64,000 bases of DNA from a virus. The stretch's first letter is position 1; each line of letters begins with the position of its first letter. Shown here piece after piece: positions 7,223 through 63,230 of the stretch. Location: positions 62,001-126,000 of IMG/VR virus record IMGVR_UViG_3300026382_000006; one strand, 5' to 3'. Under the pieces are notes generated by a model. That model ran no database searches, was not told where the DNA came from, and worked only from the letters and a program-made list of their open reading frames with translations. Made by a program: the position numbers and the translations under genes.

Positions 7223-8713
7223 ATGAATGCAATAGAAGCTCTAGTTAAAACGATACTATTATTAGCATCAGAATATAAGCATGGTGCTATAGAATCTATA
7301 GAATTAGCTATAATTATCAGGGATCATGTTTTAAAACAAAAAGATAAACATTTTAATGGTGAAGCGGAATTACTTAATAGTCTTTTAAATGTTTTAAACG
7401 ATATTATAGAAAATGGTATAAATGATATAAACTCACTAGCTAGTAGTTTAGGTAGTATTTTAATAGATAGACCTGCTTTATCAACTTTAGTTTTAAAAGA
7501 TTTAACAGAAGAAGTAGATGCAAAAGCTATTTATAATAGAAAAAAAGAAATAGGTAATTTTATAAACTTTTTAAAATTAAAAAATATTATTTCAGTAGCT
7601 GAAAAAAGATTAAATAGAAAGAATGTGAATATTTATAAACTAGCTAATGAAGTAATAAATGAATTACAAGATGTGATTGAATTTGTAGATATAAAAGATG
7701 AGGCTATAATTAATGAAGTAGATTTTGATAGTGAAGATGATATAGTTAAAGCAGTAGAATCCAGTAGCAATCTGTTAAATACTAGTACAGTATTAAAAAC
7801 TGGTTGGAAATGCATTAATGAGATGTTACAAGGAGGTTTACGTAGAGGCGAGTTTGTTATGATTTCAGCTTTACCTCATAACTATAAATCAGGATTTGTA
7901 AAATCTTTATTTTTACAATTAGCCAGATTAAACGATCCTGTTATGAATGATAAAAATAAAAAACCATTGATGCTGTTTTTTAGTTTTGAAGAAGAATTAT
8001 CCGTGGTAATGTTATTTTTTTATGCATATTTAAAATATTTAAACGAAGGTATAGCAATTAATCCGGAAAAAGCTAATATAGATAAACAAGAAATGGTGGA
8101 CTATTTAAGGAAATATCTAAAAGAGGATATTAAGTATAATATTAAAGTAATCAGAATGGATCCGTCACAGACTACTTATAAAAAAATTGTAAAAATTATT
8201 GATGAATATGGTAAAAAAGGATTTGAAATACATGCAGTATTTGCAGATTACTTAAGTCAAATTTCTACGGAAGGATGTACGAAAAACGGTCCAGCAGGTG
8301 TGGAATATAAAGACTTATATAAAAGAATGAGAAACGAAATGAGTAGAAGAAATATTCTATTTGTGACACCACATCAGTTGTCTACTGAAGCCAAGAGATT
8401 AATTAGAAATGGTATACCTGCTATTGAATTTGTAAAACATTTACCTGGTAAGGGTTATTACGCGCATAGCGGACAATTAGATCAAGAGGTAGATTTAGAA
8501 ATTTTTTTAGCTAAAGCTTATAAGAATAGAAAACCTTATTTAACAGTACAAAGAGGTAAACATAGAATACCTACTGTAATAGATGAAGAGAAACTATATA
8601 CGATGTTAGAATTTCCTAAAGGAGCACCTATTCCTGAAGATAGAAAAGATGAAGATGGTAATTGTATTACAAATTGTGTAAATGAAAACGTAGATGAAGA
8701 TTTTGGATTTTAA
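7223..8713 (+). CDS. DnaB-like replicative DNA helicase (SF4)
   Basis: 496 residues. Residues 1-185 are a helical N-terminal domain; residues about 190-460 are a RecA-like SF4 helicase core. The Walker A position is ALPHNYKS at 216-223, keeping the Lys-Ser pair but lacking the usual glycines. LFFSFEEE follows strand 2 (about 251-258). The Walker B-like VFADYLSQIS lies at about 339-348, then VTPHQLSTEAKRL (DnaB motif H4) and a GQLDQEVDLEIFL segment. It would be a hexameric ring unwinding DNA ahead of the phage polymerase. The C-terminus is acidic and ends DEDFGF. It is a lone plus-strand gene between minus-strand blocks, with ribosome binding site AAAGGAATCCTTA. Confidence 0.85.
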   Translation: MNAIEALVKTILLLASEYKHGAIESIELAIIIRDHVLKQKDKHFNGEAELLNSLLNVLNDIIENGINDINSLASSLGSILIDRPALSTLVLKDLTEEVDAKAIYNRKKEIGNFINFLKLKNIISVAEKRLNRKNVNIYKLANEVINELQDVIEFVDIKDEAIINEVDFDSEDDIVKAVESSSNLLNTSTVLKTGWKCINEMLQGGLRRGEFVMISALPHNYKSGFVKSLFLQLARLNDPVMNDKNKKPLMLFFSFEEELSVVMLFFYAYLKYLNEGIAINPEKANIDKQEMVDYLRKYLKEDIKYNIKVIRMDPSQTTYKKIVKIIDEYGKKGFEIHAVFADYLSQISTEGCTKNGPAGVEYKDLYKRMRNEMSRRNILFVTPHQLSTEAKRLIRNGIPAIEFVKHLPGKGYYAHSGQLDQEVDLEIFLAKAYKNRKPYLTVQRGKHRIPTVIDEEKLYTMLEFPKGAPIPEDRKDEDGNCITNCVNENVDEDFGF

Positions 8714-58028: not shown

Positions 58029-58496
58029 CTATTCTACTATCATCCAATCTTCAGCTGTCATGTCTGTCTGACTAGCTAACCAACCAGGTTGCAATGTTCC
58101 CTGTGCTGTATACATATCAATGTGTCCATCAATTCTAATTTTACCTCTTAAACCAGCATTCCAGTAAGGTGTATTTTCTCTTATTTCTACTTCGTTACCT
58201 GGTACATATATTAACCACATACCTTTCCCATTCCAACCTTTTCTGGCTACTTTTTTACCTTGCTTTAATGCCTCTATAGCTTCGCTAAATGTCATGTTCT
58301 CATTACTAAGTTCTTTATAACCATTAACAAATGCAGCATAAGGTGACCAACTTTCATAATTATCACTATACTTTACTCTAAATCCGGGTTGGTTTTCTGC
58401 ATCTGGTTCATAATCTCTAACCAATCCTAAACTTCCAGCATCATGATACGTCATTGGTTCCGCTTCTACTACTTTAATACATTTATATTTTTTCAT
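58029..58496 (-). CDS. DUF2829 (Tad2-like) protein, candidate anti-Thoeris factor
   Basis: 155 residues. Residues about 67-155 match the DUF2829 pattern: MTFSEAIEALKQGKKVAR, GWNGKGMWLIYVPG, IRIDGHIDMYTAQGTLQPGW, LASQTDMTAEDW. DUF2829 proteins include Tad2, a phage sponge that binds the cyclic-ADP-ribose signal made by the Thoeris defence system. Residues 1-66 are an extra N-terminal domain (KYKCIKVVEAEPM, YESWSPYAAFVNGY) frequently seen in other phage proteins. Composition is richer in Gly, Trp and Pro than neighbours. Domain identity is confident; anti-defence activity is inferred. Confidence 0.75.
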   Translation of the reverse strand: MKKYKCIKVVEAEPMTYHDAGSLGLVRDYEPDAENQPGFRVKYSDNYESWSPYAAFVNGYKELSNENMTFSEAIEALKQGKKVARKGWNGKGMWLIYVPGNEVEIRENTPYWNAGLRGKIRIDGHIDMYTAQGTLQPGWLASQTDMTAEDWMIVE

Positions 58497-59786: not shown

Positions 59787-60194
59787 TTAATCATATTCTT
59801 TGTAGTCGTTTAAAATATAACAAATTGCTCTGGCTTGATTGATAGATGTGACTCCGAACATATCTGTAATTGTCTTACCTTTTGCTTTATTTTTTATTTC
59901 TTTTAGCAATGTAGGATTTTCTTTAAAATATTGTTCCCATAGTATTACATACTCTTTAAATAATTCATTTTCTGTCTTATTATTTAATGGCGGTTTACCT
60001 TTAGCTTCTTTCCAATGTTTTACTTTATCTCTGTAACCCTTAATATCTAGTTGGTAAATTTCTTCTATGGATTTATTATTATAACTACTTAAACGAGCAT
60101 AGAGAGCTGAATATCTTTTATCACCTTTACTGGATACTTCGTAATAGGGTTCACCTCTATTTACTCTCCTAGCCCATTTGTAAATTACTTTTTT
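59787..60194 (-). CDS. Frame without a normal start: possible -1 frameshift extension of DNA polymerase
   Basis: 135 open codons in the frame -1 to the polymerase, ending TAA at 59787. No ATG, GTG or TTG occurs until late in it. The sequence (KWARRVNRGEPYYEVSSKGD, SIEEIYQLDIKGYRDKVKHW, EAKGKPPLNNKTENELFKEY, GVTSINQARAICYIL) is plainly coding and resembles a small conserved phage protein I have seen as a free-standing gene. It begins beside the A_AAA_AAG heptamer before the polymerase stop. Options: programmed frameshift fusion, a rare start codon, or a base lost in the sequence. Confidence 0.6.
   Translation of the reverse strand, partial: KKVIYKWARRVNRGEPYYEVSSKGDKRYSALYARLSSYNNKSIEEIYQLDIKGYRDKVKHWKEAKGKPPLNNKTENELFKEYVILWEQYFKENPTLLKEIKNKAKGKTITDMFGVTSINQARAICYILNDYKEYD
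60185..60194 (-). promoter_or_regulatory. dnaX-type slippery heptamer before polymerase stop
   Basis: The minus strand reads GA_AAA_AAG followed by TAA. The heptamer A_AAA_AAG in this register is the E. coli dnaX -1 frameshift site. AAAGGA lies 6 bases upstream (an SD-like stimulator position), and a small stem (AATAG/CTATT with GG/CC, TGAA loop) lies about 30 bases downstream. Confidence 0.5.
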
Positions 60195-62353
60195 TCAGCA
60201 TCCTTTAAAAATGGTAATTCTTCGGATAATATTAAGTTTGGTTTAACATAATATCCCATGCTGTTTAAAATAATATATAACATATTACAATTATCTTTTA
60301 CTACTTTCTTAATATCTATAATATCCATTATCTCTTTAGGGAAACCTTTATTGTGTAAATTTACTAATGGAAATTTGAATGTCTTAATTTCTGTTTTGTT
60401 ATATTTTTTCATAAACTCTCTAAACTTATTAGTAAATTCTTGATCTTCTAAACTAGATAACCAATTTTCCATATCTTTTTTACTATTAATTATGGTAGGA
60501 ATTTTAACAGCCATATAAGTAGGATCAGGTGCATTACCATATTTATCTGCAAAGACATCTTGCCATAATAAATATTGTAAATAAGGAGATTTATCCATTT
60601 CTGCTTTATATGCTGTAGGTTCTTTTATTTTTTCTAATTTTAATACATTAGGGCTACCTGATTTAATTGCTTTAATAATCATTTGTTCTGCTTCTACTAC
60701 TTGTTTCAAATATTTTGTTAATGACAATTTTTCGTTTCTAGAGATAGTATCCATAATATCTCTCATCATTTTTTCAGCTAAGTCTCTTACCGGTTGGTAA
60801 GCATATGATGCTATAAGATGCACACCTTTCTTCTCTAGGTCTGGTTCTTTAAATACATTACCCTCTTGTATTCTAACATTAGCGAAATAGTGTTTGGATA
60901 CATCTGTATTTACAAATACATCCCAGAAAAATTCATTTTTCATTTGTAAATTCTTAGCTCCCTCGTAACCAATATTCATATTTGCACCTAGTACTTTAAT
61001 ATAATGGTCTATTGCTTGTGTATTAAATGTCATCACTATAGCAGTCAGACCTATTGCTGTAGAATTTATCACAGGTTTACCAAAATACCATTCTATCCAA
61101 TTTTGATATGTAGCACATGTACTATCTGTATCTGATAACACAATTACTTCTCTTAACATATCTCTTATATATGCTATAGAGATAGGAAATACCTTTGTAA
61201 CAAATAATGTCTGTATTAAGTCTTTGTAATTATGAAATACTCTTTGAGCATTTAAACCTGCTTTAGCTAAATCTATTATTACCTCATCTGGTAATTTATC
61301 TTCCCCCTCTAAAACATATTTTCTACCACGTACTATATCAGCTTTCAGATGTAGTAATAAGTTTATTATCCAATCTTCTAAAGATTTTAAGACTTCTATA
61401 GCTTGTTCGACAGTATTTATTTTTGCTTCTTTAAATAGTATACTATCTAATAACTTCCTTACAAATTCAGGATTAAATTCTCTTAGTTGGTATAAATCAT
61501 TCACATATGTAATAGCTGCTCTTTCTACGGGAGATAATCTTTTCAAAAATTCTAATATTCTATGTTCTCTATAAGTATTTCTCCAGTAATATTTACTAGA
61601 CTTTAATATTACTTTATTTAATACTTCTTCAGCTGTAGGATAATATAATTCGTACTTATCCATTATCTGTTTAAAGTTATCCATGTCTATATTTGTTACA
61701 ATAGCTGTTAAATGGTTTAATGTCACATTAGGATCTCTATAATGTCTATTACCTGTAATCATTGATTCAGATATAGCATTACCTATTCCTGATACACATC
61801 TTGTAATAGATGTTAGTGTATAGTGTGCCGATGGATTATATAGTACTGTACCTGCACTAGCATATGCTCCTGATAAACTATTGTTTTTAATTTTCATAGA
61901 TTTTTGCAATGTATTATGATAATTGGATTTTTCTTTATCACCATCCATTTTATACTTAAAAGCCAATTTTTTATGTTTAGATCTTAAGGCAATATTTTCA
62001 CTAATAAATTCAGCATGCAGTGATTTCTTCTTTTTACGATTAAAATATACTGTAAAAGATGGTACTAAAATATCATCATTCTGTTTTACATAATTTATAT
62101 ATCCTAATATAGTTGTATACTGATTATTAATTATTTTACCATCTAATGTTCTTTCCCTATATCTCACTCTAGGATTTCTAATCTGATGTTCTTGTTTTAA
62201 TTTATTTAAAACATTTTTAACTTTCTTTTTTGCTTCTTCTATAGGTAAATGATTTTGTGTTGCTATGTATTTACTAGCTTGCTCTATATAGTGGTTAATA
62301 GGATCTATATCGGTGGTATATTTATCTTTCTCTAATTTAAATACTTCAAACAT
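60185..62353 (-). CDS. Family B DNA polymerase, catalytic (palm/thumb) part, phiKZ-type
   Basis: 722 residues. Motif B is KIKNNSLSGAY with Lys154 and Asn158-Ser159; the usual Tyr of NSxYG is Ser. Motif C is VLSDTDSTC with Asp408 and Asp410. About 245 residues separate them, far more than in T4-type enzymes. No motif A (DxxSLYPS) and no 3'-5' exonuclease motifs are visible, so these must lie in a different gene or be unrecognisable here; phiKZ relatives are known to carry the proofreading domain on a separate protein. The stop follows an A_AAA_AAG heptamer. The start is the ATG at 62353 behind AAAGGAAAAAA. Confidence 0.82.
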   Translation of the reverse strand: MFEVFKLEKDKYTTDIDPINHYIEQASKYIATQNHLPIEEAKKKVKNVLNKLKQEHQIRNPRVRYRERTLDGKIINNQYTTILGYINYVKQNDDILVPSFTVYFNRKKKKSLHAEFISENIALRSKHKKLAFKYKMDGDKEKSNYHNTLQKSMKIKNNSLSGAYASAGTVLYNPSAHYTLTSITRCVSGIGNAISESMITGNRHYRDPNVTLNHLTAIVTNIDMDNFKQIMDKYELYYPTAEEVLNKVILKSSKYYWRNTYREHRILEFLKRLSPVERAAITYVNDLYQLREFNPEFVRKLLDSILFKEAKINTVEQAIEVLKSLEDWIINLLLHLKADIVRGRKYVLEGEDKLPDEVIIDLAKAGLNAQRVFHNYKDLIQTLFVTKVFPISIAYIRDMLREVIVLSDTDSTCATYQNWIEWYFGKPVINSTAIGLTAIVMTFNTQAIDHYIKVLGANMNIGYEGAKNLQMKNEFFWDVFVNTDVSKHYFANVRIQEGNVFKEPDLEKKGVHLIASYAYQPVRDLAEKMMRDIMDTISRNEKLSLTKYLKQVVEAEQMIIKAIKSGSPNVLKLEKIKEPTAYKAEMDKSPYLQYLLWQDVFADKYGNAPDPTYMAVKIPTIINSKKDMENWLSSLEDQEFTNKFREFMKKYNKTEIKTFKFPLVNLHNKGFPKEIMDIIDIKKVVKDNCNMLYIILNSMGYYVKPNLILSEELPFLKDAEKK

Positions 62354-62422
62354 TTTTTTCCTTTATGTCCTTTTCTAAAATAATGTTCTTAATGAAAAAA
62401 TTTTAGACAAATGCAATATGTA

Positions 62423-62705
62423 TGATAGCAAAAGCTATTAGGACCTTAAATTGTACTGTAGGTACGATATCAAAATACTACTCAAGATTGAGATAGTTGC
62501 GATCACTCTACTAGTATAGCTGTAGCGAGGGGCTATACGACCAGTCAGTACATGCTTTATACCTGTAGTACCTGCCTCCATGAGGTAAGGGCTACAGGTA
62601 TGGAGTGGTCTGGACCATATTAGCTGGTATGGAATCTGGGAGGAGCAGAGGAGCGGGAGTCCCTCGCTGGGCGGAGGGTGGGTAATGCGACAGCATGTAG
62701 TACCG
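62423..62705 (+). ncRNA. Candidate structured RNA in divergent intergenic region
   Basis: About 280 bases that are far richer in G and C than their surroundings and full of inverted repeats. On the plus strand: ATAGC/GCTAT (62425-62438), TTGTAC/GTACGA (62451-62467), GTATAGC/GCTATAC (62514-62538), an outer GACCA/TGGTC (62539-62543/62606-62610) enclosing a 9-bp TACCTGTAG/CTACAGGTA stem (62560-62568/62592-62600) with an inner TACCT/AGGTA, then CCATA/TATGG, and CCCTC/GAGGG (62661-62665/62674-62678). TACATGC (62549-62555) can pair with GCATGTA (62693-62699), making a pseudoknot across the outer stem. No family recognised; no open frame of note. Strand is a guess. Confidence 0.5.
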
Positions 62706-62756: not shown

Positions 62757-63230
62757 ATGAAGAAATTAGTAAAATTATTTATGAATAAATTAAATATTAA
62801 AAAAGAAGATAAATTAGTAATAAGGACATTAGGAATAGGTAAAGATTATTTAAGTAATGTCTACTTATCCACTACATTAGACTCAGAGTTAAGAAAAGAA
62901 TTTATAGAGGAAAATCGTGATGTAGAAATATTAAATATAGGTAATGAAGATATTACAATAGTTGATTACAAGTTGTATAATAAATGGAGTACAAAACAAA
63001 AAGAAAAAAATTGTAATTGTAGAGAGTATGAAATTAAATTACATAGTAAACTGATAAAAGAATTAATTTTAAATTTGATTAAAAAATTAAATATAGAAAT
63101 ATTAGAAAAGGAAATGAAGTATGAAAATAAGTATTTATATTTAAAAGTAAAAAAGAATGAAAATATAGCCATATTTGAGGATGCGTTAAATAAAATATTA
63201 GATATGGATAATGAAAGAGATCAAATCTAG
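62757..63230 (+). CDS. Hypothetical basic protein, 157 aa
   Basis: 157 residues, Lys/Asn/Ile-rich, helical, with a NCNCREYE motif in the middle. No family recognised. Binding site AAAGGATGATAT. It is the first gene downstream of the structured region on the plus strand, so that region could be its leader. Function unknown. Confidence 0.65.
   Translation: MKKLVKLFMNKLNIKKEDKLVIRTLGIGKDYLSNVYLSTTLDSELRKEFIEENRDVEILNIGNEDITIVDYKLYNKWSTKQKEKNCNCREYEIKLHSKLIKELILNLIKKLNIEILEKEMKYENKYLYLKVKKNENIAIFEDALNKILDMDNERDQI

Follow-up and report, generated by a model that had tools for sequence, protein, structure and literature searches.

A conserved pseudoknotted structured RNA in intergenic regions of phiKZ-related large phages

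GOLLD and ROOL are highly structured, pseudoknotted RNAs of phages and prophages without known function, which measure ~660 to >800 nt and are often located near tRNA islands (PMC12286853). The RNA described here is likewise phage-encoded, highly structured and pseudoknotted, but it comprises less than 300 nt, has no Rfam match, and no tRNA genes were found in its phages. Large phage RNAs without assigned function thus have precedents in GOLLD and ROOL, but the new RNA differs from these in size, architecture and setting, and the Rfam covariance models for GOLLD, ROOL and OLE gave no matches in the analysed DNA or in its relatives. The pRNA of phage phi29, which is shorter than the new RNA, is also a phage RNA with loop-mediated tertiary pairing. 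However, its loops pair between molecules, whereas loop and tail of the new RNA pair within one molecule, and Rfam again detected no relationship. ColE1 RNA II and the G-quadruplex-linked R-loop primers, e.g. the mitochondrial primer, are structured, contain G-rich stretches and may form an RNA-DNA hybrid. These features recur in the new RNA, but it has no homology to these primers, its position is variable, and nucleotide skew provides no support for a replication start. Group I introns (RF00028) are GC-rich structured RNAs that occur in the same phage clade. The new RNA is not called by RF00028, although the true intron of a sister phage is (the one group I intron called by Rfam in that phage), and unlike a group I intron it sits between genes in every copy, interrupting no host gene. 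Literature searches retrieved no description of a structured RNA of such sort in phiKZ-related large phages, and blastn against named phages yielded no match to the element.

The window, i.e. the whole stretch of 64,000 nucleotides that was analysed, corresponds to bases 62001-126000 of the 186,213-base IMG/VR record IMGVR_UViG_3300026382_000006 (G000). A 125-base terminal direct repeat suggests that this record represents a complete circular map. The window has genes for a phiKZ-type major head protein, for beta-type subunits of RNA polymerase and for a family B DNA polymerase of divergent sequence, and therefore the phage is regarded as a phiKZ relative. As a sequence search for the phage nucleus protein ChmA found no match, the label "nucleus-forming" was withheld. 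Near the polymerase gene, a Tad2-like protein is encoded at window positions 58029-58496 on the minus strand (Thoeris anti-defence 2 domain, PF11195, E 1.1e-26), which is likely a counter-defence gene judging from this domain. Sequences resembling group I introns by eye, scoring below the Rfam threshold, are present at G000:C1:838-1073 and ~179157-179499 (loci L119 and L125). Such sequences are abundant in the phage clade, with motifs such as GATATAGTCT (L132:2097-2472, minus strand; also L167, L170, L174, L205, L208-L210, L213-L215, L227, L233 and L239).

The initial annotation had drawn attention to a GC-rich block without open frame in this AT-rich genome, located in the divergent intergenic region beside the DNA polymerase gene. 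Indeed, positions 62524-62673 have a GC content of 56%, which is the maximum over 150-bp segments of the window (mean 0.281, sd 0.046) and also the highest for any 150 bases across the whole record, a phage genome of 28% GC. The plus strand of 62423-62705 folds with -105.7 kcal/mol (z = -4.2; 0/200 shuffles as good), as compared to z = -2.2 for the minus strand. The extreme GC content in window and record, and the folding relative to shuffles, rule out a chance fluctuation in GC. The longest start-to-stop run in 62423-62705 is 47 aa and no convincing ORF is present, so a coding function was rejected. The Rfam scan returned no family at gathering score, and a permissive scan only chance matches to animal miRNAs or snoRNAs. 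No tRNA or tmRNA was found at the element in searches that included ARAGORN. Comparison and scans thus agree with the earlier statement that the element is no RNase P RNA, tmRNA, SRP RNA, tRNA or group I intron. The flanking genes and the parts of the RNA are located as follows (window coordinates):

60185-62353, minus strand: DNA polymerase gene, flanking the candidate RNA on one side
62757-63230, plus strand: gene for a 157-aa protein of no known family, flanking the candidate RNA on the other side
62450-62705, plus strand: whole conserved structured RNA, supported by covariance model scores, the nhmmer match in the sister phage and covariation
62461-62512, plus strand: P2 (GGUA 62461-62464 / UACU 62509-62512), closing the 5' domain; paired in 7/7 copies
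62467-62476, plus strand: AUAUCAAAAU, conserved in sequence
62469-62471 and 62501-62503, plus strand: P1a (AUC/GAU), which becomes AGU/GCU in G005a
62477-62497, plus strand: P1 hairpin (ACUA-CUCA, loop AGAU, UGAG, bulged A, UAGU)
62498-62507, plus strand: UGCGAUCACU, the most conserved sequence motif; identical in six copies, one change in G005a
62514-62538, plus strand: P3 hairpin (GUAUAGC/GCUAUAC) with an 11-nt loop at 62521-62531
62524-62531, plus strand: pseudoknot strand 1, AGCGAGGG, within the P3 loop; pairs with 62661-62668
62541-62639, plus strand: P7 (CCAG 62541-62544 / CUGG 62636-62639), closing the junction with P4 and P5
62555-62605, plus strand: P4, a 24-bp hairpin with two mismatches and the conserved tip CUGCCUC-loop-GAGGURRGG
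62615-62632, plus strand: P5 hairpin (CCAUAUU-AGCU-GGUAUGG)
62637-62660, plus strand: conserved purine-rich linker GGGAGGAGCAGAGG...
62661-62668, plus strand: pseudoknot strand 2, CCCUCGCU, immediately 5' of the G-rich tail
62669-62682, plus strand: G-rich tail GGGCGGAGGGUGGG, a possible two-tier G-quadruplex; G runs are kept, spacers vary

The conserved RNA spans ~62450 to ~62690, and conservation of the local 5' hairpin (62423-62440) is weak at most. The linker is GGAGCAGAGG-like in both copies of the sister phage and GGGGGAAAGGAGGGG-like in the other copies.

An alignment of phiKZ-type polymerases used as query yielded 80 related loci; queries with single proteins (polymerase, RNA polymerase subunit) found no relatives, the chosen peptides not being conserved. 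The sister phage (G001; locus L010), whose polymerase is 67% identical and which also has end repeats, carries a homologous GC-rich block in the same divergent place (G001a; nhmmer E 3.8e-11). A covariance model of this copy and the window's own (R1) detected a second copy in the sister phage ~40 kb away (G001b; E 4e-18), which has no counterpart in the window's genome. A motif scan read by eye revealed the RNA in three further contigs of the clade (G004, G050, G008), and a screen of GC-rich intergenic regions uncovered copy G005a in contig G005. When the three-sequence model R2 was run unfiltered, these four non-seed homologues ranked right after the seeds (E 1e-5 to 8e-4). All seven copies were combined in model R3, whose weakest seed, the G005 copy, obtains E 2e-6 over the whole record. 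Two weaker copies, G005b and G006, were found by eye, R3 placing them correctly but with E of only ~1 and ~0.3, and G002 retains a tail-only remnant. The window scores 149.8 bits with R1, 138.7 with R2 and 55.5 with R3, being a seed of each model; E-values are rough, as the models derive from hand-trimmed sequences with short calibration. The strong family set accordingly comprises seven copies in six contigs, in addition to two weaker copies and one remnant. In the sequences covered here, the family was restricted to a single clade of large phages related to phiKZ. R3 under strict filters had no match in eight named phiKZ-like phages, which is weak evidence.

Several other matches were discarded. 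An early sequence pattern search of the loci gave only chance coding matches, the sister phage excepted, and seven pattern matches in bacterial and archaeal genomes, all in unrelated organisms, were judged to be chance on light reading. Weak covariance model matches in L116, L118 and L250 and a pattern match in L245 were read and then dropped. A block at G000:170695, upstream of the terminase-like gene, resembled a second copy at first sight, yet on reading it consists of short coding frames: the GC-rich block G000:C1:170500-171100 contains frames of 30-40 aa with GGAG-type ribosome-binding-like sites on the minus strand. At L165:7155-7215 (minus strand), a tail-only remnant (CCTTGGGGGGAGGATGACGGTCGGGGCGGTGGAGGGCGTCGGG) lies right after a small nuclease-like ORF (7263-7628, minus strand), as if the 5' part of the RNA had been replaced there. 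The motif GAACGNAGTGA is found by or in four RNA copies (L010:4620-4630, minus strand; L127:6087-6097; L172:17565-17575, minus strand; L254:7410-7420, minus strand). It lies just 3' of the RNA in the sister phage and inside the 3' part in G004 and G050, is rare elsewhere in the loci, and may be a hairpin linked to the RNA.

The seven copies were aligned by hand with insertion bases omitted, which leans towards structure; in this alignment 32/37 pairs changed on both sides, 98.8% of cells are paired, and the covariation score is 0.965 versus 0.296 in shuffles (0/500 shuffles reach it). In a control, sliding the partners by 1-3 columns lowered pairing to 34-47%. Changes on both sides were seen for all four pairs of P2, and covariation for the four outer pairs of P1, 4/5 counted pairs of P3, 15/16 of P4 and 4/5 of P5. 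RNAalifold, applied to an unfitted MAFFT alignment of G004, G050 and G008, recovered P3, P4, P5 and P7 with covarying pairs. P7 was absent from the hand-drawn structure and first revealed by this analysis; its strands pair fully in 7/7 own copies, but in 0/40 cross-combinations. When the window was aligned with G001a and G001b without fitting, the 5' domain was placed wrongly and it was mainly P4 and P5 that were recovered.

The initial annotation had also predicted a long-range pairing of 7 bp forming a pseudoknot. This pairing is compensated in relatives, but its length has to be corrected: it comprises 8 bp in the window (62524-62531 with 62661-62668), or 9 bp if one G-U is included. Pseudoknots of 8-9 bp are formed by four copies of unrelated sequence, i.e. 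the window, the two sister copies (CCUGGACA/UGUCCGGG and UUGGCAGG/CCUGCUGG) and G005 (CUGUGAGGU/ACCUUAUGG). In these strong copies, 4-16 of 2000 shuffled loops equal the own pairing (7/2000 as good for the window loop), and the tail of no other copy equals it. The P3 loops of G004, G008, G050 and G006 pair over 4-5 bp only, which alone is not significant. In G000, G001a, G001b, G005a, G006 and G008, the best-pairing strand ends at a distance of 18-21 nt from the end of the tail segment. Thus, the helices including P7 are present in seven copies on six contigs, while the pseudoknot is strong in four and short or weak otherwise. G-U pairs far exceed A-C mispairs (21 versus 0 in P1, P2, P3, P5, P7 and the pseudoknot, 21 versus 2 in P4, 42 versus 2 in total), and therefore the RNA is encoded on the plus strand. 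Judged by these compensatory changes, the pseudoknot between P3 loop and 3' strand is real and the element is a conserved RNA, chance folding being excluded, as the earlier proposal of an unrecognised, pseudoknotted structured RNA had envisaged. A lack of compensatory changes in homologous regions, which the initial annotation had listed among the refuting outcomes, was thus not what the comparison showed. That it is functional we regard as nearly certain. A 5' domain of P2, P1a and P1 around AUAUCWAAAU/UGCGAUCACU, the P3 pseudoknot, the P7 junction with P4 and P5, and the G-rich tail, all shown by the comparison, define a proposed new RNA family.

G runs follow the pseudoknot strand in every copy. 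A two-tier G-quadruplex motif is present in 7/9 copies, but it also arises frequently in G-rich shuffles (P ~0.05 given the G content), and an energy model allowing quadruplexes puts one in the tail of most copies; motif and model are only suggestive of a G-quadruplex.

The genomic placement of the copies is variable. The RNA lies beside the polymerase gene in the window and the sister phage only, whereas in 13 relatives the polymerase locus has 66-99 bp and lacks the RNA. The probable copies G005b and G006 immediately precede a gene resembling the large terminase, with which they are divergently oriented; the G008 copy and the G002 remnant are upstream of a helicase-like gene, and the G050 copy is near an RNA polymerase subunit gene. 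G004, G005a and G001b reside after or between genes without assigned function. The genes downstream of the copies are not homologous to one another, and for G001a, G001b and G004 the next gene is on the opposite strand. Since copies occupy different intergenic places and homologous downstream genes are missing, we favour an RNA gene acting in trans: on balance, the sequence comparisons make a stand-alone structured non-coding RNA of ~230-280 nt from the plus strand the probable, though by no means assured, reading. An intrinsic terminator search right after the RNA in the window found none. In phiKZ, late promoters carry the motif TATG, and transcription starts at its G (PMC4666361). TATG occurs just 5' of the RNA at 62417-62420 and 62421-62424, but we give it little weight because this tetranucleotide is frequent in AT-rich DNA and was not seen at the sister copies.

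Such a gene would give rise to a discrete, stable RNA. Its pseudoknot would clamp the G-rich tail to the 5' domain, and a folded tail, possibly a G-quadruplex, could shield the 3' end. A site of binding or activity may lie in the internal loop that is conserved around UGCGAUCACU, with a phage or host protein as the most likely partner, and the molecule might serve as structural or ribonucleoprotein RNA during infection.

The initial annotation had also named an origin and a priming RNA among the possible roles. The main functional rival is an RNA that initiates replication: an R-loop (RNA-DNA hybrid) would arise at the G-rich tail when the G-rich strand is transcribed, with the structured RNA as pre-primer for the phage DNA polymerase. 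This idea agrees with the conservation of G-rich tail and purine-rich linker, with the one and two copies in the two complete-looking genomes, and with the location of copies next to the polymerase gene (two phages) or a helicase-like gene (one further phage). However, the RNA does not coincide with a turn of the GC or AT skew in either of the complete genomes, it shifts between unrelated places and is missing from the polymerase locus of the 13 relatives, and the sequence-specific folding outside the tail exceeds the needs of a primer. We therefore consider it unlikely. Quite unlikely, too, is a scheme in which the pseudoknot presents a G-quadruplex-forming tail, and the RNA starts or controls replication (or another core step) and relocates between intergenic sites as the phages diverge.

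Variable positions would also be expected if the RNA were a small mobile element that is selfish or relocated by recombination and has no function for the phage; the second sister copy lacking from the window's genome and the G002 remnant, which suggests turnover, fit with this. However, neither an ORF nor terminal repeats nor a clean empty site could be demonstrated, and structure and motifs are strongly constrained in all copies, which speaks for a function. We regard this explanation as improbable.

A cis-acting, riboswitch-like leader of the 157-aa gene had been among the suggestions of the initial annotation. This gene does begin 52 nt past the RNA on the same strand, with a plausible ribosome-binding site (AAGGATG), and a same-strand gene follows at some distance in 6/9 copies including the window, so individual copies may have a role in cis. 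But no same-strand gene follows either sister-phage copy, and the genes after the remaining copies are mutually non-homologous; the consistent same-strand gene or pathway required by a riboswitch or leader is not observed. Because of the differing sites and the absence of a homologous gene downstream, the leader interpretation was abandoned as very improbable in favour of a stand-alone RNA. Least probable of all is a phi29 pRNA-like packaging RNA acting with the large terminase: although two probable copies adjoin a terminase-like gene, upstream and divergent, these are the weakest members (R3 E ~1 and 0.3), the RNA is not near this gene in the window or the sister phage, and Rfam gave no match.

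Taken together, we favour a trans-acting structured RNA whose rapid evolution, with the pseudoknot kept by compensation and two copies in one phage, points to a real, selected role. Large phiKZ-related phages have been studied almost only via their proteins, and most copies were missed by sequence search alone, so many phages may harbour RNAs of this kind that have escaped notice. Pseudoknot, P7 and tail are named elements whose disruption and compensation would make the function of this RNA testable.
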